Shown here in pieces: positions 1,623 to 21,477 of a DNA stretch of 22,431 nucleotides (positions are counted from its first letter, which is position 1; each line of letters opens with the position of its first letter). Below the pieces are notes generated by a model. It was not told where the DNA came from. It searched no databases and saw nothing but the letters and a program-made list of their open reading frames with translations. The position numbers and the translations under genes are program-made. This stretch comes from a virus, in IMG/VR virus record IMGVR_UViG_3300020410_000563, positions 1 through 22,431 of that record; one strand, 5' to 3'.

Positions 1623-2045
1623 ATGGTTGATCAAGACAATTACTTTAATATAGACTATCCAGGTTATTCACCCTTAGAAGTTTCATTAAAGGACCCAGAA
1701 GATTTCCTAAAAGTGAGGGAGACACTATCACGAATAGGTGTTGCTTCTAAGAAGGAAAAGGTTCTTTATCAGTCTTGTCATATACTGCACAAAAAAGGTA
1801 GATACTTTATTACACATTTTAAAGAACTATTTGCATTAGACGGCAAGGAAGCTGACTTCCAAGACAATGATTTACAACGAAGAAATACAATAGCAAAACT
1901 ACTATCCGATTGGGGATTAGTAGACATCATTTCTAAAGATGTTGATGATTATGCTCCTTTAAGTCAGATAAAAATAATATCATTTAAGGAGAAGGGTGAG
2001 TGGGAGCTAATCCCTAAATATAACATTGGGAAGAAAGTCAAATAA
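1623..2045 (+). CDS. regA: Translational repressor RegA
   Basis: RNA-binding protein that in T4 represses translation of several early mRNAs, including its own and those of clamp-loader genes, by covering ribosome binding sites. The core PEDFLKVRETLSRIGVA, KVLYQSCHILHKKGRYFI, HFKELFALDGKEAD and RRNTIAKLLSDWGLV aligns by eye with T4 RegA almost throughout. The protein is 140 residues, against 122 in T4. The extra residues are an N-terminal lead of about 17 (VDQDNYFNIDYPGYSP). ATG at 1623 is chosen over an in-frame TTG at 1617; the ribosome binding site is weak. A 43-base gap separates it from gp62. Its end overlaps the radical SAM gene. Confidence 0.93.
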   Translation: MVDQDNYFNIDYPGYSPLEVSLKDPEDFLKVRETLSRIGVASKKEKVLYQSCHILHKKGRYFITHFKELFALDGKEADFQDNDLQRRNTIAKLLSDWGLVDIISKDVDDYAPLSQIKIISFKEKGEWELIPKYNIGKKVK

Positions 2046-3354
2046 CCAGGAATACTGGCTCAACAAGATAAAAACAGACTTGGACGCAATTGGTCCAGGA
2101 TTCTGTATCTTAAAATGGCACTATCTTGAGTTATCACTTGCAGAGGGACTGAAACATTCTTGTTATCATTGTCCACAACACAAAATACCTTTAAAATCAG
2201 ATTTACACAATACACCTACAACAAAAGAAGTAAGGCAACAAATGCTGGATGGACTAAAACCAGCCGAGGACAATTATTGCTACGATATCGAGAAAACAGG
2301 CAACTATTCTGATAGGCAATATCTTGCCGTTCAGTTCATAAAAGAAGACCCTAACATTATCGCCAAGACAGCAGCTTACGAACCTGATGAACAAATATAT
2401 CCTAAATATCTAACAGTCAGTTTTACAAATAGATGTCAAATGTCCTGTATATATTGTGGTGCAGGAAAAAGTTCTACATGGAAAAAAGAAATAGATGAAC
2501 ATGGACCTTATCCTCTAAATGTAAAAGATAATTATGACAAGTATATGCCTAGAAATGATATAATGAAAGTAGAGGATAATCCTTATGTAGATAAATTTTG
2601 GAAATGGTTACCAGATGCTTATCCTCACTTACAAACAATTAGACTTACAGGTGGTGAACCTTTATTAGATGAAAATACATTTAAGTTATTACAATATGTT
2701 AAGGATAATCCTAAAAAACTATCATTTGAAATAAGCACAAATTTAATGGTTACAGATAGGCGAGTATCTAATTATATAAATTTAGTGAAAGGCTTACCAG
2801 GACAGAAATGTTATGTAAGCGTAGATACTTGGGGAGAACAAGCAGAATGGATTAGAACAGGACTAAAAATAGAACAATTTGAACATAACCTACACAGAGT
2901 ATTAGGTAACGGTATAAAAGTAGGTATTATGTGCACCTTTAATCTTTTATCTATTCCTAACTTTGAAGAGTGGGTATTTAAAATGGCAGAACTAAAACAA
3001 CAATATCCTGGACTGCTTACAGTTGATGTTCCTCAAATGGTAGAGCCATTACACCTAACTACAAGAATTGCTGATAAAAAGTTAATAAATATGTTGGATA
3101 AGGCATATAAGTCTATGCTAACATATTCGCATCTATTTGAAGATTACGAAATATCTAAATTTAAAAGAACAATAGCGTGGACAAAGGCAAACCTTATGAA
3201 AGGCGAAGAATTAGAAAGAAATAGAAAAGACTTTGTTAAATTTGCCAATGAAAAAGATAGGAGAAGAGGCACAAATTTTTTAGAAACTTTTCCTGAATTG
3301 AAAGAATTTTATAATGACACAAGCACAACAATACAAGCTACTTCATCCATATAA
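2026..3354 (+). CDS. Radical SAM protein (twitch-domain type)
   Basis: A 442-residue enzyme that should bind a [4Fe-4S] cluster and cleave S-adenosylmethionine to a 5'-deoxyadenosyl radical. The canonical CX3CX2C motif is seen at Cys137, Cys141 and Cys144 (NRCQMSCIYCGAG), and a GGE motif at about 209-211 (RLTGGEPLLD) fits the SAM-binding site. An N-terminal CYHCP (about 46-50) and Cys85 may add metal-binding positions. The family is known in marine T4-like phages as a radical SAM protein with a twitch domain; its substrate is unknown. The best start is TTG at 2026, inside regA, without a strong ribosome binding site, so the N-terminus is uncertain. It overlaps the following oxygenase by 41 bases, which suggests that the two work together or are co-regulated. 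Confidence 0.85.
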   Translation: MGRKSNNQEYWLNKIKTDLDAIGPGFCILKWHYLELSLAEGLKHSCYHCPQHKIPLKSDLHNTPTTKEVRQQMLDGLKPAEDNYCYDIEKTGNYSDRQYLAVQFIKEDPNIIAKTAAYEPDEQIYPKYLTVSFTNRCQMSCIYCGAGKSSTWKKEIDEHGPYPLNVKDNYDKYMPRNDIMKVEDNPYVDKFWKWLPDAYPHLQTIRLTGGEPLLDENTFKLLQYVKDNPKKLSFEISTNLMVTDRRVSNYINLVKGLPGQKCYVSVDTWGEQAEWIRTGLKIEQFEHNLHRVLGNGIKVGIMCTFNLLSIPNFEEWVFKMAELKQQYPGLLTVDVPQMVEPLHLTTRIADKKLINMLDKAYKSMLTYSHLFEDYEISKFKRTIAWTKANLMKGEELERNRKDFVKFANEKDRRRGTNFLETFPELKEFYNDTSTTIQATSSI

Positions 3355-3970
3355 TCCTACAATATTAGTAGCAGACGATTTCTTTCCAGCAGAAAAATGT
3401 GATTTATTATTAGAAACTGCACAAGAACCAGACTTTTTTAAGAAATCCTCAGTAGGAGATGACCCAGATAATCCTACATATGATTATAGACGAACAAGTA
3501 AGACAGGTTGGATAGATTATAACAATATTACAGCTCACGAATTTTTACAAAGAGCAGCTTCAATATTAAATGTGAGACCTGAACAGTCAGAACAATTACA
3601 AATAGTCAGTTATGATTTAGGACAAGAATATGCACCTCATCAAGATGCATTTCCTTTAGATTCATATCAACTTAATGAAAACGGCGGACAAAGAGTAGCA
3701 ACTGCATTATTATATTTAAATACACCTACAGAAGGAGGAGCAACATCTTTTCCTAGTATAAATGGTGGTAGAGGATATGAAGTGCAAGCAAGAAAAGGAA
3801 GATGTGTATTTTTTACTACTACATTCTTAGGATTACAAGAACCACATCCGTTTTCACTACACGGTGCTATGCCATTAATTAAAGGTAGAAAGTATGTTGC
3901 TAACTGTTGGTTTAGACAACATCAAAGATGGGCATATAAAACACCAGAAGACACAGATCAAAGTGATTAA
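3314..3970 (+). CDS. 2OG-Fe(II) oxygenase, prolyl 4-hydroxylase-like
   Basis: A 218-residue non-haem iron dioxygenase that would couple 2-oxoglutarate decarboxylation to hydroxylation of a protein or small substrate. The iron ligands fit H109-x-D111 (YAPHQDAF) and H183 (SLHGAMPL), with K193 (GRKYVANCW) as the likely 2-oxoglutarate-binding residue. The intervening ATALLYLNTPTEGGATSFP and RKGRCVFF strands are typical of the P4Hc fold. The ATG lies within the end of the radical SAM gene. Such oxygenases are frequent in marine T4-like phages, where their targets are mostly unknown. The next gene is 279 bases away, behind a late promoter motif. Confidence 0.9.
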   Translation: MTQAQQYKLLHPYNPTILVADDFFPAEKCDLLLETAQEPDFFKKSSVGDDPDNPTYDYRRTSKTGWIDYNNITAHEFLQRAASILNVRPEQSEQLQIVSYDLGQEYAPHQDAFPLDSYQLNENGGQRVATALLYLNTPTEGGATSFPSINGGRGYEVQARKGRCVFFTTTFLGLQEPHPFSLHGAMPLIKGRKYVANCWFRQHQRWAYKTPEDTDQSD

Positions 3971-4249: not shown

Positions 4250-4696
4250 ATGGTAAGATTAAGCACGACTAATTGGAACAATTTCGTTTCAGCATTCCCA
4301 CAAGTAGAAAGTAGATTAATAGGATTTGACAGAGTATTTGACGCTGTCAATAGACTTCATAGTATTGAAGGCGGACAATCTAACTCTTTCCCACCTTACA
4401 ACATCAAGAAACTAGATGATGAAAATTATGAAATCACACTAGCTCTTGCAGGCTTTAAAAAGTCTGAATTGAGTGTTGTTGTGGAAGACGGCAACCTTGT
4501 CGTTAAAGGTGAACAAGAAAAATCAGAAGATGAATTCTTGCATAAAGGAATTGCAGAACGCAATTTCACAAGAACATGGGCTTTAGCAGATGAAGTTAAA
4601 GTATCAGGTTCTAAACTTGAAGATGGAGTTTTAACTATTTCACTGGTTCATGAAATACCAGAGGAAAAGAAACCTGTCGATATAAAAATTAAATAA
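4250..4696 (+). CDS. hsp20: Small heat shock protein Hsp20 (IbpA-like)
   Basis: ATP-independent holdase chaperone of the alpha-crystallin family. It binds unfolding proteins as oligomers and probably helps fold phage proteins late in infection. The 148-residue protein has an N-terminal arm (NNFVSAFPQVESRLIGFDRVF) and an alpha-crystallin domain from about residue 49 (YNIKKLDDENYEITLALAGF, ELSVVVEDGNLVVKGE), with the conserved late element LEDGVLTISL and a short basic tail. AGGAGG stands 7 bases before the ATG, a very strong ribosome binding site. Hsp20 is a standard gene of marine T4-like phages. A late promoter motif and a long, potentially folded leader precede it, which suggests late and perhaps post-transcriptional control. 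Confidence 0.95.
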   Translation: MVRLSTTNWNNFVSAFPQVESRLIGFDRVFDAVNRLHSIEGGQSNSFPPYNIKKLDDENYEITLALAGFKKSELSVVVEDGNLVVKGEQEKSEDEFLHKGIAERNFTRTWALADEVKVSGSKLEDGVLTISLVHEIPEEKKPVDIKIK

Positions 4697-16653: not shown

Positions 16654-17071
16654 AAAATTAATTATGTTTACTGTAGACTGTTGGAGATTAGTAATGGATA
16701 ATAGGTATAATCCTCTTAGACATATTGCTGACCCTTCAATTCAAGCCTACTTTACAATGGTATTGTTCATCATGTGGAGTGCTTACTTTGCCTTACTTGC
16801 ATGGACTTATATTGGTTGGGATAGTTATAGTATTGTTTATTCAATATGGATACATTTAGGAGTGGTTATTCCTATGATGTTGACTAACTTAACATTTAGA
16901 GAAGCAGAAAAGAATGGCGCTAAATGGTATAAAGATAAATGGGAGAAAGAATCGTTTCTTCATTGGAAAAAACAAGAACAAAGCTATAATTCTTTTCAGA
17001 AAAAACCACTTACAGGTAAAGGTCAATTTGATAAACAAAGAACTGGTTATACAGAAGGAGACAACACCTGA
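16640..17071 (+). CDS. Two-helix membrane protein (143 aa)
   Basis: A basic N-terminal segment (MKYIRKLIMFTVDCWRLVMDNRYNPLRHI) is followed by two membrane helices at about 36-58 (AYFTMVLFIMWSAYFALLAW) and 63-84 (IVYSIWIHLGVVIPMMLTN), then a long charged tail likely in the cytoplasm. The sequence 'DNR.NPLRHI.DPS.QAYF...LF.MWS.YF' resembles a conserved hypothetical of marine T4-like phages, from memory. The function is unknown. It overlaps the previous gene by 14 bases and the next by one. Confidence 0.7.
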   Translation: MKYIRKLIMFTVDCWRLVMDNRYNPLRHIADPSIQAYFTMVLFIMWSAYFALLAWTYIGWDSYSIVYSIWIHLGVVIPMMLTNLTFREAEKNGAKWYKDKWEKESFLHWKKQEQSYNSFQKKPLTGKGQFDKQRTGYTEGDNT

Positions 17072-17511
17072 TGAAATTAGACTATAAAGACGTAGGCAAA
17101 ATAGGTATAACTTGTTCTACATTTGATTTACTACATGCAGGACATGTTGTAATGTTAGAAGAAGCTAAACGTCATTGTGATTATCTAATAGCAGCCCTAC
17201 AAGTAGACCCTACACAAGACAGAAAAGAAAAGAACAAACCTATACAAAGCGTCGTAGAAAGACAAATCCAACTAGCAGCAGTTAGATTTGTAGATGAGAT
17301 TGTAGTATATAACACAGAAAAAGAATTAGATGATATATTTTTAACCTTGCCTATTAATGTTAGGATTATAGGAGAAGAATATAAGGACAAAGATTTTACG
17401 GCAAAGAAAATTTGCTATAAAAGAAAGATAGAGATAATCTATAACAAGCGAGATCATTCTTTCAGTAGCACTGATCTTAAAAAACGAACTAAAATTATGG
17501 AGATAAAATGA
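17071..17511 (+). CDS. Cytidylyltransferase-like nucleotidyltransferase
   Basis: A 146-residue enzyme of the HxGH nucleotidyltransferase superfamily, closest in layout to glycerol-3-phosphate and ADP-heptose-type cytidylyl/adenylyltransferases. The active-site motif is H22-A-G-H25 (FDLLHAGHVVMLEEAK), the PIQSVVERQIQLAAVRFVDEIVV segment matches the family's R-x2-x-L region, VRIIGEEYKDKDF precedes the sugar or alcohol site, and FSSTDLKKR replaces the usual ISSTxxR. It activates a phosphorylated sugar or alcohol with CTP or ATP; the substrate is unknown. The glycosyltransferase 450 bases downstream suggests a glycan pathway. It starts in a TGATG overlap, with AGGAG 10 bases upstream. Confidence 0.85.
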   Translation: MKLDYKDVGKIGITCSTFDLLHAGHVVMLEEAKRHCDYLIAALQVDPTQDRKEKNKPIQSVVERQIQLAAVRFVDEIVVYNTEKELDDIFLTLPINVRIIGEEYKDKDFTAKKICYKRKIEIIYNKRDHSFSSTDLKKRTKIMEIK

Positions 17512-18760: not shown

Positions 18761-19918
18761 ATGAGGTTTACAGAATTTTTAACAGAACAATCCGAGGAAG
18801 ACAAGCTCAAACATTTAGAACATGTTGAGGACCACGTCATTCATTCAGGACATAAAGGTTTTGGACACGCATTTCATACATTGAATGATGTGCATAATAA
18901 CCTACAAGGCAAAGGTGGCAAAGATACACAGGTAACAATGAAATATGATGGCAGTCCTGCCGTTGTATTTGGTAAGCATCCTGAAAATGGTAAGTTCTTT
19001 GTAGCATCTAAGTCAGCATTCAATAAAAATCCTAAGATAAATCATACACACGAAGATATACAAAAGAATCATGGACATGCTCCTGGACTTGTTCAGAAGT
19101 TAAGTGCAGCATTAGATCACGCACATAAAATAGAGCCTGATGGAATCTATCAGGCGGACATAATGCACGCAGGAGATGTTAAGAAGAAAGGCAACAGAGT
19201 AGAATTTACTCCTAATACTATTACATATCACGCACCACATGATTCAGATCATGGTAAAGCAGCAGCTAATTCTAAACTAGGATTAGCAGTTCATACAAAG
19301 TATGAAGGCAAAAATATAGCAGATTTAAAGGCTGTTCATGGTGCAGTAGATATGAAAAACTTTAAACAACATAAAGACGTCCATATGATGGACGCTAATC
19401 ACGATACAAGCACTCATAGATACTCTATGGAAGACAGAAAAAAGGTGCAACACCACTTGGACCAAGCAGTGGCACACTTCAAAAATACACCAAGAGAGCA
19501 CCACGATACTGTGGCAAAACACGCAGTAGCAAAGAAAACATACATCAATCATACTGTAAGAACAGGAGAACCTTATAGTCATGAAGGATTTGTAAAACAT
19601 GTAACTGCTAGCCACCAAAAGAAAGTAGATAAAGTAAAAACAGACGCAGCTAAGGCTAGACATCAAACAACTATGGATAACACTCTAGATCATATAAATA
19701 AGAATAAGGAACACTTTGAAGGGCCTATGAACATGCACAAACACCTTCAAGCAGCAAAGAATATTATTACTAATACTTTGTCGCAGAAGTCACAGTATGG
19801 ACATGAGATAGCAGGCTCTCCTAGTAAACCAGAAGGTTTTGTTGCCATACGAAATGGCAGACCTTCTAAATTTGTAGATAGAAAAGAGTTTAGTGCAGCT
19901 AACTTTAATAAAGGATAA
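18761..19918 (+). CDS. DUF6267-like protein: ligase-type nucleotidyltransferase with capsid-targeting-like N-terminus
   Basis: A 385-residue protein of a family I recall from marine T4-like phages as DUF6267. VTMKYDGSPAVVFG carries K61-Y-D-G64, the nucleotidyl-lysine motif I of ATP-dependent ligases. It is followed by NGKFFVASKSAFNKNPKIN, GIYQADIMH and KLGLAVHTKYEGK, which fit later motifs of that fold, so ligase or nucleotidyltransferase activity on RNA or DNA is plausible. The opening MRFTEFLTEQ resembles the capsid-targeting leader of T4 internal proteins (IPIII begins MKTYQEFIAEA) and has a possible gp21 cleavage site LTE/Q. It has about 41 histidines (over 10 percent). The stop overlaps the NfuA start (TAATG). 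Confidence 0.75.
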   Translation: MRFTEFLTEQSEEDKLKHLEHVEDHVIHSGHKGFGHAFHTLNDVHNNLQGKGGKDTQVTMKYDGSPAVVFGKHPENGKFFVASKSAFNKNPKINHTHEDIQKNHGHAPGLVQKLSAALDHAHKIEPDGIYQADIMHAGDVKKKGNRVEFTPNTITYHAPHDSDHGKAAANSKLGLAVHTKYEGKNIADLKAVHGAVDMKNFKQHKDVHMMDANHDTSTHRYSMEDRKKVQHHLDQAVAHFKNTPREHHDTVAKHAVAKKTYINHTVRTGEPYSHEGFVKHVTASHQKKVDKVKTDAAKARHQTTMDNTLDHINKNKEHFEGPMNMHKHLQAAKNIITNTLSQKSQYGHEIAGSPSKPEGFVAIRNGRPSKFVDRKEFSAANFNKG

Positions 19919-20553
19919 TGGATATTAATATAGAAGTAACAGAAGATGCAATAGAGTATTTGAAAGGACTATTGGAAACAGTAGACATTCAAGACCCTAA
20001 AGGTCCTAAGACTAATATTAAAGTTTTTGTAGAAAACGGTGGGACTCCACATGCAGAAACAATGCTAACGTATTGTAAAGAGTCAGAGAAAGGCGATTCA
20101 GAGGTAATAAACTTTGAACCTTTTGATCTGTATGTAGATAAAAACAGTATAAAATTTTTAGAAGACGCTAAAGTAGACCATAACAAGGATACTTTTGGAG
20201 GACAATTAACTATAAAGGCACCTAATTCTAAGGTATCTAAATTAGATGAAAATTCTACTTTAGAAGAGAAAGTTAATTATTATCTGTTCAATGATGTAGC
20301 TCCTATGTTAGCACAACATGGTGGTAATGTAAGACTACATAAAATTACAGAAGATAATATGGCAGTATTAGAATTTGGTGGGGGTTGTCAAGGGTGTAGT
20401 GCAGTAGATATGACACTTACTCATGGCATAGAACAAATAATTTTACAGAACGTTCCTGAGATAAAAGGCATAATGGATATGACAGATCATAGTCTATCAC
20501 AGAATGCTTATTATAAGGACGAATCTGAAGCACAAGCATACGGAGGCTTTTAA
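19918..20553 (+). CDS. nfuA: Fe-S cluster carrier NfuA
   Basis: A 211-residue homologue of bacterial NfuA, which receives [4Fe-4S] clusters and delivers them to apo-enzymes. The N-terminal half is a degenerate A-type domain (IKVFVENGGTPHAETMLTYC, FDLYVDKNSIKFLEDAKVD, GGQLTIKAPN). The C-terminal Nfu domain has LAQHGGNVRLHKITEDNMAVLEFGGG followed by C157-x2-C160, matching E. coli Cys149/Cys152, and IKGIMDMTDH. Length and both domains match E. coli NfuA (191 residues) closely, and the cluster cysteines are intact. Phage copies would act as auxiliary metabolic genes. In this window they could serve the radical SAM enzyme or host Fe-S proteins (inference). It is followed at TAATG by a cysteine-rich peptide. 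Confidence 0.95.
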   Translation: MDINIEVTEDAIEYLKGLLETVDIQDPKGPKTNIKVFVENGGTPHAETMLTYCKESEKGDSEVINFEPFDLYVDKNSIKFLEDAKVDHNKDTFGGQLTIKAPNSKVSKLDENSTLEEKVNYYLFNDVAPMLAQHGGNVRLHKITEDNMAVLEFGGGCQGCSAVDMTLTHGIEQIILQNVPEIKGIMDMTDHSLSQNAYYKDESEAQAYGGF

Positions 20554-20606
20554 TGCAAAAGAAATGCAAATGTTGTGAATGCTGTTCTTGCACTTGTTGC
20601 GGGTAA
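20553..20606 (+). CDS. Eight-cysteine microprotein (17 aa), putative metal-binding peptide
   Basis: A tiny frame, MQKKCKCCECCSCTCCG, with 8 cysteines in 17 residues, arranged as C-x-CC-x-CC-x-C-x-CC. GGAGG (20542-20546) is placed 6 bases before the ATG, and the ATG overlaps the NfuA stop (TAATG), the same coupling used by real genes here. The CxCC and CxC pattern is like metallothioneins, so binding of zinc, copper or iron (or an Fe-S cluster) is plausible. The stop falls 4 bases before the next ATG, so the frame fits exactly between two genes. It is too short for most gene finders. Function and expression are unproven; the metal role is inferred from composition and position. Confidence 0.6.
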   Translation: MQKKCKCCECCSCTCCG

Positions 20607-20610
20607 TTAA

Positions 20611-21477
20611 ATGGCAGACGAACAAGAAAAACATATAGTATTTTCATATGGACGTATGAATCCGCCTACTGCTGGACATAGCAAAGTCGTAGATAAAGTT
20701 AAGTCTCATGCAGAAAAAATAGGTGCTAATCATGCTGTCATTGTTAGTCATTCACAAAACAGTAAAACAGACCCTTTACATCATGAGCACAAAAAAGAAT
20801 ATCTAAGACATATTCATCCAGATGTAAACTTTGAACATTCTACAAAAGAACACCCACACTTCTTAGCACAACTTAAAAAGTTTAATCAAGAAGGACATTC
20901 ACACGCAACTATGGTTGTAGGTAGTGATAGAGTAAAACAATTCAAGTCGTTGGCACATAAATACAACGGTAAAGAGTATAATTATAAAAAGATAAACATA
21001 CTATCAGCAGGACACAGAGACCCAGATGCTGAGGGTGTTGCAGGTATAAGTGGAACAAAGATGCGTAATCATGCTAGTGGTAATGATTACAAATCATTTA
21101 AGGCAGGATTACATGCCAATCATAGTGATGAACATGCCAGAAAACTATTTAAAGCAACACGTCAAGGTATGAATCTACAGAAAGAAGAGGTAGGCATGAA
21201 AGATTTTAAAACATTCCTTGCAGAAGATATGTCAGGTATGACTGTCGGAGGCGGACATAAAAGAAGTGTCAAGCAAGGCGCTGGACTTACTAAGAAAGGT
21301 GTTGCCAAATATAGGCGACAAAATCCTGGTAGTAAATTACAAACAGCAGTTACCACACCACCAAGTAAACTAAAACCTGGCAGTAAAGCTGCCAAAAGAC
21401 GTAAATCGTTTTGCGCTAGAAGTAGAGGATGGACAGGTGAAAGAGGTAAAGCAGCAAGACGGAGGTGGAATTGTTAA
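20611..21477 (+). CDS. TxGH nucleotidyltransferase fused to capsid-targeting-like segment and DUF6321-like tail
   Basis: A 288-residue protein in three parts. Residues 1-195 form a nucleotidyltransferase: FSYGRMNPPTAGHSKVVDKV has the T-x-G-H active site (T20-H23), VVGSDRV follows, and GISGTKMRNH corresponds to ISSTxxR; an adenylyl- or cytidylyltransferase is likely. This part is histidine-rich (about 21). Residues 196-207 read MKDFKTFLAEDM, like a T4 capsid-targeting leader with a possible LAE/D cleavage site. Residues 208-288 are basic, with GLTKKGVAKYRRQNPGS, KPGSKAAKRRKSFCARSRGW and RRRWNC, as in DUF6321 proteins of T4-like phages. ATG 20611 follows the cysteine peptide by 4 bases. The second part may also be made separately (see the internal start). 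Confidence 0.8.
   Translation: MADEQEKHIVFSYGRMNPPTAGHSKVVDKVKSHAEKIGANHAVIVSHSQNSKTDPLHHEHKKEYLRHIHPDVNFEHSTKEHPHFLAQLKKFNQEGHSHATMVVGSDRVKQFKSLAHKYNGKEYNYKKINILSAGHRDPDAEGVAGISGTKMRNHASGNDYKSFKAGLHANHSDEHARKLFKATRQGMNLQKEEVGMKDFKTFLAEDMSGMTVGGGHKRSVKQGAGLTKKGVAKYRRQNPGSKLQTAVTTPPSKLKPGSKAAKRRKSFCARSRGWTGERGKAARRRWNC
21196..21477 (+). CDS. Possible internally initiated protein: CTS-like leader plus DUF6321-like domain (93 aa)
   Basis: The in-frame ATG at 21196 (Met196 of the larger protein) has GAGG at 21187-21190, 5 bases upstream, a better ribosome binding site than that of the full-length start. The product would begin MKDFKTFLAEDM, exactly where capsid-targeting leaders begin in T4 internal proteins, and contain the whole basic DUF6321-like domain. 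A separate 93-residue product, cleaved and packaged in the head, is therefore plausible. It could also be a simple fusion with no internal translation. Confidence 0.4.
   Translation: MKDFKTFLAEDMSGMTVGGGHKRSVKQGAGLTKKGVAKYRRQNPGSKLQTAVTTPPSKLKPGSKAAKRRKSFCARSRGWTGERGKAARRRWNC

Follow-up and report, generated by a model that had tools for sequence, protein, structure and literature searches.

Features of the microORF locus

The analysed stretch of DNA (hereafter the window) comprises the 22431 bases of one IMG/VR virus record and carries T4-like replication genes, including those for a UvsX-like recombinase, a DnaB-like helicase, a family B polymerase, clamp loader parts and a translational regulator. 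Near its end lies a microORF whose coordinates are given in Table 1 together with those of its neighbours. Translation of 20553–20606 bore out the frame of 17 codons and eight cysteines that had been predicted from the bare sequence. The predicted arrangement was likewise confirmed: the microORF ATG (20553–20555) and the nfuA stop codon (TAA, 20551–20553) have one base in common within TAATG, GGAGG stands 6 nt from the ATG, and 4 nt separate the microORF stop codon (20604–20606) from the start of the next ORF (20611).

Table 1 Coordinates of the microORF, its ribosome-binding site and the adjoining genes in the window
Feature	Position	Strand	Remarks
DUF6267 gene (phrog_455)	18761..19918	+	Upstream neighbour in relatives too
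nfuA-like gene	19918..20553	+	A-type domain and NifU C-terminal domain; GGCQGCS motif
GGAGG Shine-Dalgarno (SD)	20542..20546	+	6 nt spacer to the microORF ATG; within the coding end of nfuA
microORF MQKKCKCCECCSCTCCG	20553..20606	+	17 codons and TAA; 8 Cys in C-x-CC-x-CC-x-C-x-CC
Cytidylyltransferase-like / DUF6321 gene	20611..21477	+	Often the downstream neighbour in relatives too

The product of the nfuA-like gene matched the Pfam models NifU (PF01106, 1.2e-17) and Fe-S_biosyn (PF01521, 2.4e-9); its best NCBIfam model was TIGR03341 (YhgI_GntY, 3.1e-71), at a score below the cut-off of that model (239 vs 269 bits). It was 48–51% identical to SAR86 NfuA and 51% identical to the NfuA of one Porticoccaceae genome. 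The window also encodes a radical SAM protein (2026–3354), a 2OG-Fe(II) oxygenase (3314–3970), an Hsp20 (4250–4696) and a second cytidylyltransferase-like protein (17071–17511), and two of these four are enzymes that could need a supply of Fe or Fe-S.

A 7-Cys sub-pattern of the microORF matched once in the window and not once in 100 dinucleotide shuffles. Cysteine occupies 8 of the 17 residues of the peptide, which has no aromatic residue and no histidine, a composition of the kind by which metallothioneins are recognised (small size, Cys of at least ~ 20–30%, CxC and CC motifs, few or no aromatics). We regard the microORF as almost certainly a real gene.

Conservation of the cysteines in related loci

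Pattern searches force the cysteines to be present, and selection was therefore measured on sets found by other routes. A free scan for Cys-dense ORFs was run on 85 loci fetched by NfuA or cytidylyltransferase protein; at least one such frame was present in 19 of them, and the 8-Cys family was found in five (L001, L003, L004, L127 and L152, with overlapping pieces of the same contigs), some further Cys-rich frames being taken as chance. When these five loci were compared, third-position changes were seen in five of the eight Cys codons, and all 16 first and second positions were invariant (hypergeometric p = 0.0013). The scoring of synonymous against nonsynonymous change in relatives, which had been proposed along with the original prediction, is thus in favour of conserved cysteines.

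The same loci point to an accessory gene. A different Cys-rich 16-mer, MCKCESCKCDPCTCSN, occupied the same spot before the cytidylyltransferase gene in L133–L135, with an AGGAGG site. Since L129–L132 carry the cytidylyltransferase gene with neither the 8-Cys microORF nor a 16-mer of this type before it, the microORF is dispensable. The DUF6267 gene lay upstream with no intervening nfuA in L127, L224, L234 and L317. A further Cys-rich phage microORF with an SD site, MCENPNCKCENCTCNPCKCTGRDCGC (L151:8287–8367), was noted on a contig that has a relative of the cytidylyltransferase gene.

The 8-Cys family in viral contigs

The 8-Cys spacing C-x-CC-x-CC-x-C-x-CC was searched in IMG/VR, both leading spacers being restricted to RRN, and the same pattern in reversed codon order served as a null control (a complete scan, 68 stretches). 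One filter was applied to both (an ATG within 8 codons, no more than 9 Cys), and exact sequence duplicates were removed before counting, which reduced 104 viral and bacterial rows to 81. The forward pattern gave at least 137 matches in viral loci and at least 42 distinct microORFs, 36 of these with an SD-like site, vs 76 matches and no microORF for the reversed pattern. The six viral members lacking an SD site include L260, which is cut by the contig end. Viral members were 13–17 residues long and mostly of the form M(x)0-4 C[KN]CC[KESR]CC[SNTDKHA]C[TDES]CC followed by 0–2 residues, the spacers between the cysteines being small and hydrophilic. Only two distinct other Cys-dense microORFs with an ATG and a ribosome-binding site were seen in the first viral loci.

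Profile searches covered members and frames of 20 residues or more, for which the 17-mer itself is too short. Neither Pfam (E up to 1) nor NCBIfam returned a match for the 25-residue member at L427, and PHROG returned none for the 25-residue readthrough frame of the window peptide. A blastn search of GenBank phages for the region around the microORF returned 70 records, none of them covering 80% of the query, and tblastn with frames of 32 and 24 residues returned nothing, under a low-complexity filter that may mask such frames. The 20 GenBank blastn matches listed were 22–41 bases long with E values of 3 to 9 and were taken as chance. The whole genomes of phages C48C1, HTVC008M, P-HM2 and S-CAM9, searched with 5-Cys sub-patterns, gave no match or matches judged to be chance; the 8.4 kb around the iscU gene that C48C1 carries are free of Cys-dense ORFs.

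Copies in SAR86 and other bacteria

SAR86 is an abundant surface-ocean group. When one genome per bacterial species was searched with the 8-Cys pattern, at least 119 stretches were obtained, from which at least 39 microORFs passed the filter; 34 of their records were SAR86, three Gammaproteobacteria, one Porticoccaceae and one Woeseiaceae. Two further bacterial copies fall outside the filter, one with a GTG start (L398, Porticoccaceae) and one with a longer N-terminus (L355, Oligoflexia). The type peptide of SAR86 is MCDCCDCCECSCCSK, with variants.

Within the order of SAR86 genome G001, the full pattern occurred in 71 of 199 sampled genomes, or 70 once G193, a repeat, is subtracted. A loose search in the same order for a promoter followed by M-C-[RAN]-C-C found 66 places in 65 genomes, and at 65 of these 66 promoter-ascertained places the remaining five cysteines were in exact register (comparison of coordinates). 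The exception, G167:C2:131813 (L474), in which a stop codon replaces the last of the eight motif cysteines, is the single break among the 66 copies. Taken with the viral data, the window microORF looks like a member of a family common to many phages and SAR86 and kept by selection.

Among the matches listed, TANWNT ended exactly 6 bases before the ATG in 36 of 39 bacterial rows, compared with 17 of 324 large ORFs and none of 42 viral members; the narrower TATANT stood at this position in 32 of the 39 bacterial rows listed vs four of the 324 large ORFs, which were taken from the same loci with mechanical first-ATG starts. Because this −10 box lies exactly 6 nt before the ATG (e.g. L334:4924–4971 and L412), we infer a leaderless mRNA for most SAR86 copies. 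Not all are of this type: L477 (G188) has its −10 box further upstream together with an SD-like stretch, the spacing is shifted in L475 and L476, and an SD-like site was present in five of the 39 bacterial rows listed. SAR86 carries the 8-Cys peptide as a separate gene with its own promoter, and most of its copies look leaderless.

An alignment of the 60 bases upstream of the bacterial genes was inspected for a shared operator, and outside the extended −10 region (−18 to −7) no column exceeded 0.6 bit, with the exception of the base adjoining the ATG (0.67 bit); with no conserved column beyond the extended −10, we propose no metal-sensor site. By the rule applied in the terminator scan, nothing terminator-like followed the L355 copy, and one followed the L427 copy, where shuffles averaged 0.5. 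A sulfatase-like protein, recognised by reading its sequence, is encoded upstream of four SAR86 copies (L344, L392, L408 and L426).

The surroundings of the bacterial copies include metal-related genes. A MerC-family gene (PF03203) was present in 28 of 30 microORF-bearing SAR86 genomes, which had been chosen by eye with long contigs favoured and several of them with a known MerC-like neighbour, and in 15 of these 28 no more than 4 kb separated it from the microORF, the arrangement taking several forms. The chance expectation would be ~ 1% for independent positions in genomes of 0.9–1.5 Mb, a figure that shared descent precludes claiming. A next ORF was visible at 34 of the 39 bacterial loci listed and none at the other five; the 31 same-strand next genes were scanned and comprised MerC (five), beta-helix/NosD (four), Lactamase_B/HAGH_C, i.e. 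glyoxalase II-like (three), SMR (two) and VTT (two), others occurring once. In one genome (L355), a predicted ArsR-type HTH protein (PF12840, 2.6e-8; PF01022, 3.1e-6) ends directly upstream of the microORF; the 41 genomes searched in the family of that genome yielded no second real member.

Fe-S genes beside the 8-Cys microORF

The original prediction tied the microORF to nfuA. The overlap of start and stop codons in the window agrees with this, and an obligate coupling is not supported: nfuA was adjacent in five of the 42 distinct viral occurrences listed (L001, L003, L004, L152 and L294, with nfuA on the opposite flank in L004), and in SAR86 the peptide has a gene of its own. In these 42 occurrences, DUF6267 and cytidylyltransferase neighbours were commoner than nfuA and occurred without it, while L002 and L005 have nfuA and no microORF within the fetched stretches. 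Given the five occurrences and the absence from L002 and L005, coupling to nfuA seems confined to a single phage lineage.

A broader form of the proposed link to Fe-S carriers fared better. Fe-S genes were counted by querying the loci with IscU, IscA and NfuA in tblastn, with an SD site required (L260 excepted) and rows merged by flanking DNA, which leaves 37 loci rather than 42. nfuA, iscU or iscA was found in nine of the 37 distinct 8-Cys viral loci listed, the other 28 having none of them in the fetched stretch; in six of the nine it lay within 400 bases of the microORF (five nfuA, one iscU), the iscU case being L218, where that gene begins 8 bases after the microORF. Among 286 pattern-fetched control loci without a counted microORF, unmatched for phage type or habitat, three had an Fe-S gene, and two of these three (L643 and L544) are loci of the second architecture described below that failed the SD filter. 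Fisher tests against these controls gave p = 2e-7 for the 8-Cys architecture and p = 4e-19 for the second architecture, values that are too small because related phages are not independent. A linkage of Fe-S assembly genes to such peptides above background in viral contigs is supported by these comparisons of sequence. The same queries found nothing in the 39 bacterial loci listed (mostly 8 kb), and the tie to Fe-S genes is accordingly viral and does not extend to SAR86.

On one 67 kb contig (L312), iscU, an A-type carrier gene, nrdA and nrdB (ribonucleotide reductase subunits) and a glutaredoxin gene are close together, ~ 9.7 kb from the 8-Cys microORF. The IscU of this contig was 82% identical to the IscU of one Porticoccaceae genome and 60–64% identical to five from SAR86, which hints at the host of that phage only.

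A second microprotein architecture

Scanning IMG/VR for the spacing of the L133 peptide yielded at least 77 distinct short ORFs under a loose filter and at least 59 with an SD site and 14 residues or more (loci L543–L661). These microORFs are Cys-rich and encode 14–19 aa, a typical member being MCKCKDCKCNPCKCN; examples lie at L643:466–507 and L600:6017–6058 (minus strand). Proline, a residue outside the search pattern, was present in 43 of the 59 members listed. Four loci (L575, L619, L588 and L625) have a 19-residue sub-type with an added C-x-CC-x-C tail (MCECKQCECESCNCSCCEC).

An iscU, iscA or nfuA gene was found in 25 of the 57 second-architecture loci listed, in 24 of them within 400 bases. 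In 21 of the 25, the microORF opens within the final iscU codons and runs across the stop codon of that gene; three of the other four microORFs lie ~ 360–400 bases downstream of the Fe-S gene and one (L636) upstream. L643 carries in a row iscU, the microORF, a DNA packaging protein gene (PF11123) and a T7-type terminase gene, and the ORF layout of L660 is similar; terminase genes on both contigs examined mark them as phage.

Comparison with known systems

Bacterial metallothioneins are roughly 50–60 residues long. The 8-Cys peptides resemble those of the SmtA/BmtA family and PmtA (PF02069) in being small and Cys-rich with CxC and CC motifs, and some bacterial copies lie near metal-handling genes. 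They differ in that the phage peptides have only 13–17 residues, about half of them in the eight cysteines, in the lack of His from the window peptide, in being phage-borne, in the leaderless appearance of the SAR86 copies and in the lack of a profile match for scannable members. As scannable members match no described model and metal binding is putative, the peptide is best called metallothionein-like and cannot be filed as a metallothionein. The short fungal Cu-metallothioneins of the Neurospora crassa type, with about 25 residues and 7 Cys, are likewise very short, Cys-dense thiolate peptides; the 8-Cys peptide is shorter still and encoded by bacteria and phages, the likeness being one of description.

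Marine phages carry iscU and A-type carrier genes (PMC5332604; PMC9038755), and one putative SAR86 phage has been described as encoding IscU (PMC5332604). Relative to these auxiliary genes, a coupled Cys-rich microORF would be an added component; the words ‘metallothionein’ and ‘cysteine’ are absent from the main text of PMC5332604. The open-access papers searched, among which most subscription journals and the contents of small-ORF catalogues do not figure, yielded no earlier report of the peptide motif in phages or SAR86, and nothing linking SAR86 with metallothionein or metallothionein with phage auxiliary metabolic genes.

Possible roles of the peptide

Soft-metal binding or thiol chemistry offers the simplest account of eight cysteines within twelve residues, which places a metal-thiolate peptide in the lead. 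That the 8-Cys peptide binds metal we consider quite likely from its composition and neighbours. Our preferred reading, to which we give a probability of roughly 0.6, is that of a minimal metallothionein-like metal-thiolate peptide that would buffer metal for Fe-S assembly or protect it. A role specific to Fe-S in phages is a closer call, and falls slightly short of an even chance.

One alternative takes the frame as a mere translational bridge from nfuA to the cytidylyltransferase gene, its cysteines accidental, as the TAATG overlap and the 4 nt to the following start might suggest. We find this scarcely credible as a whole explanation, since the exact Cys pattern recurs across dozens of unlike settings as well as in bacterial genes that stand alone, codon-reversed counterparts number zero and the Cys codons vary at third positions only; coupling itself may still occur. 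A cysteine-responsive attenuator, on which ribosomes would stall when Cys-tRNA is short and alter the next gene while the peptide itself is inert, has a precedent in the leaderless poly-Cys short ORFs reported to function in this way in mycobacteria (Canestrari 2020, cited in PMC9094748). The SAR86 copies likewise look leaderless (TANWNT in 36 of the 39 bacterial rows listed) and have runs of Cys codons, and of the 34 bacterial loci listed with a visible next gene, 31 have it on the strand of the microORF, four of the 31 being glutathione-linked by Pfam (three HAGH_C, one GFA), which is the sole support from the neighbourhood. Several observations weaken this explanation and leave it improbable. 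The next genes are mixed, the 25 matched families listed, of 31 (first next gene scanned), include no cysteine-biosynthesis or sulfate-assimilation family, and the next ORF is on the opposite strand in three bacterial loci (L385, L391 and L429) and one viral locus (L316). The RNA of the window locus, the one locus folded, showed no excess of structure over shuffles (z = +0.89). Exact Cys spacing, together with the unforced proline in 43 of the 59 second-architecture members listed, argues for selection on the peptide. Viral members, in contrast to the mycobacterial ORFs as described in PMC9094748, mostly have an SD site and lie between genes in operons, and the leaderless hexamer precedes none of the 42 listed.

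A general thiol/redox peptide, or one for broad detoxification of metals (Cu, Cd, Hg), would make the Fe-S neighbours a reflection of phage accessory regions only. The 28 of 37 viral loci (in the fetched stretch) and 39 of 39 bacterial loci listed that have no Fe-S gene are in keeping with such a role, as are MerC nearby in 15 of 28 SAR86 genomes, the predicted ArsR regulator that L355 follows and the glutathione-linked enzymes that some SAR86 members precede. Against this, 21 of the 57 second-architecture loci listed have the microORF overlapping the 3′ end of iscU, and Fe-S genes are enriched with both architectures; we regard this alternative as rather unlikely.

Copper and zinc poison Fe-S assembly. 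On the preferred reading of a metal-thiolate peptide serving Fe-S assembly, the 17-mer would most likely fold only around soft metal ions, by way of a thiolate cluster, and the phage microORF would probably be translated through coupling from the preceding gene. During infection, this small peptide might then buffer or chaperone metal, most probably to the benefit of Fe-S assembly by both phage and host: it could shield scaffold and carrier proteins from Cu(I)/Zn(II), or deliver iron or sulfur. SAR86 would use the same device from a gene with its own promoter. More tentatively still, the phage Fe-S kit may include a hitherto unnoticed part, Cys-rich microproteins (13–19 residues, at least two architectures that differ in Cys spacing) encoded across the end of iscU or next to iscU or nfuA and handling metal or sulfur for the scaffold or carrier, with the 8-Cys type common to SAR86 and other marine Gammaproteobacteria, leaderless there, and perhaps smaller than any other metallothionein-like protein.

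Should it bind metal, the peptide would rank with the shortest metal-thiolate proteins in nature, distributed across SAR86 and in phages; it would also add a component to phage-borne Fe-S assembly and allow a direct test of what phages gain from having iscU and nfuA at all. The microORF is so short that gene callers may miss it. Most SAR86 microORFs have the −10 hexamer exactly 6 nt before the ATG, vs a similar hexamer there in 17 of 324 large ORFs of the same loci, and leaderless starts may therefore help gene finding.
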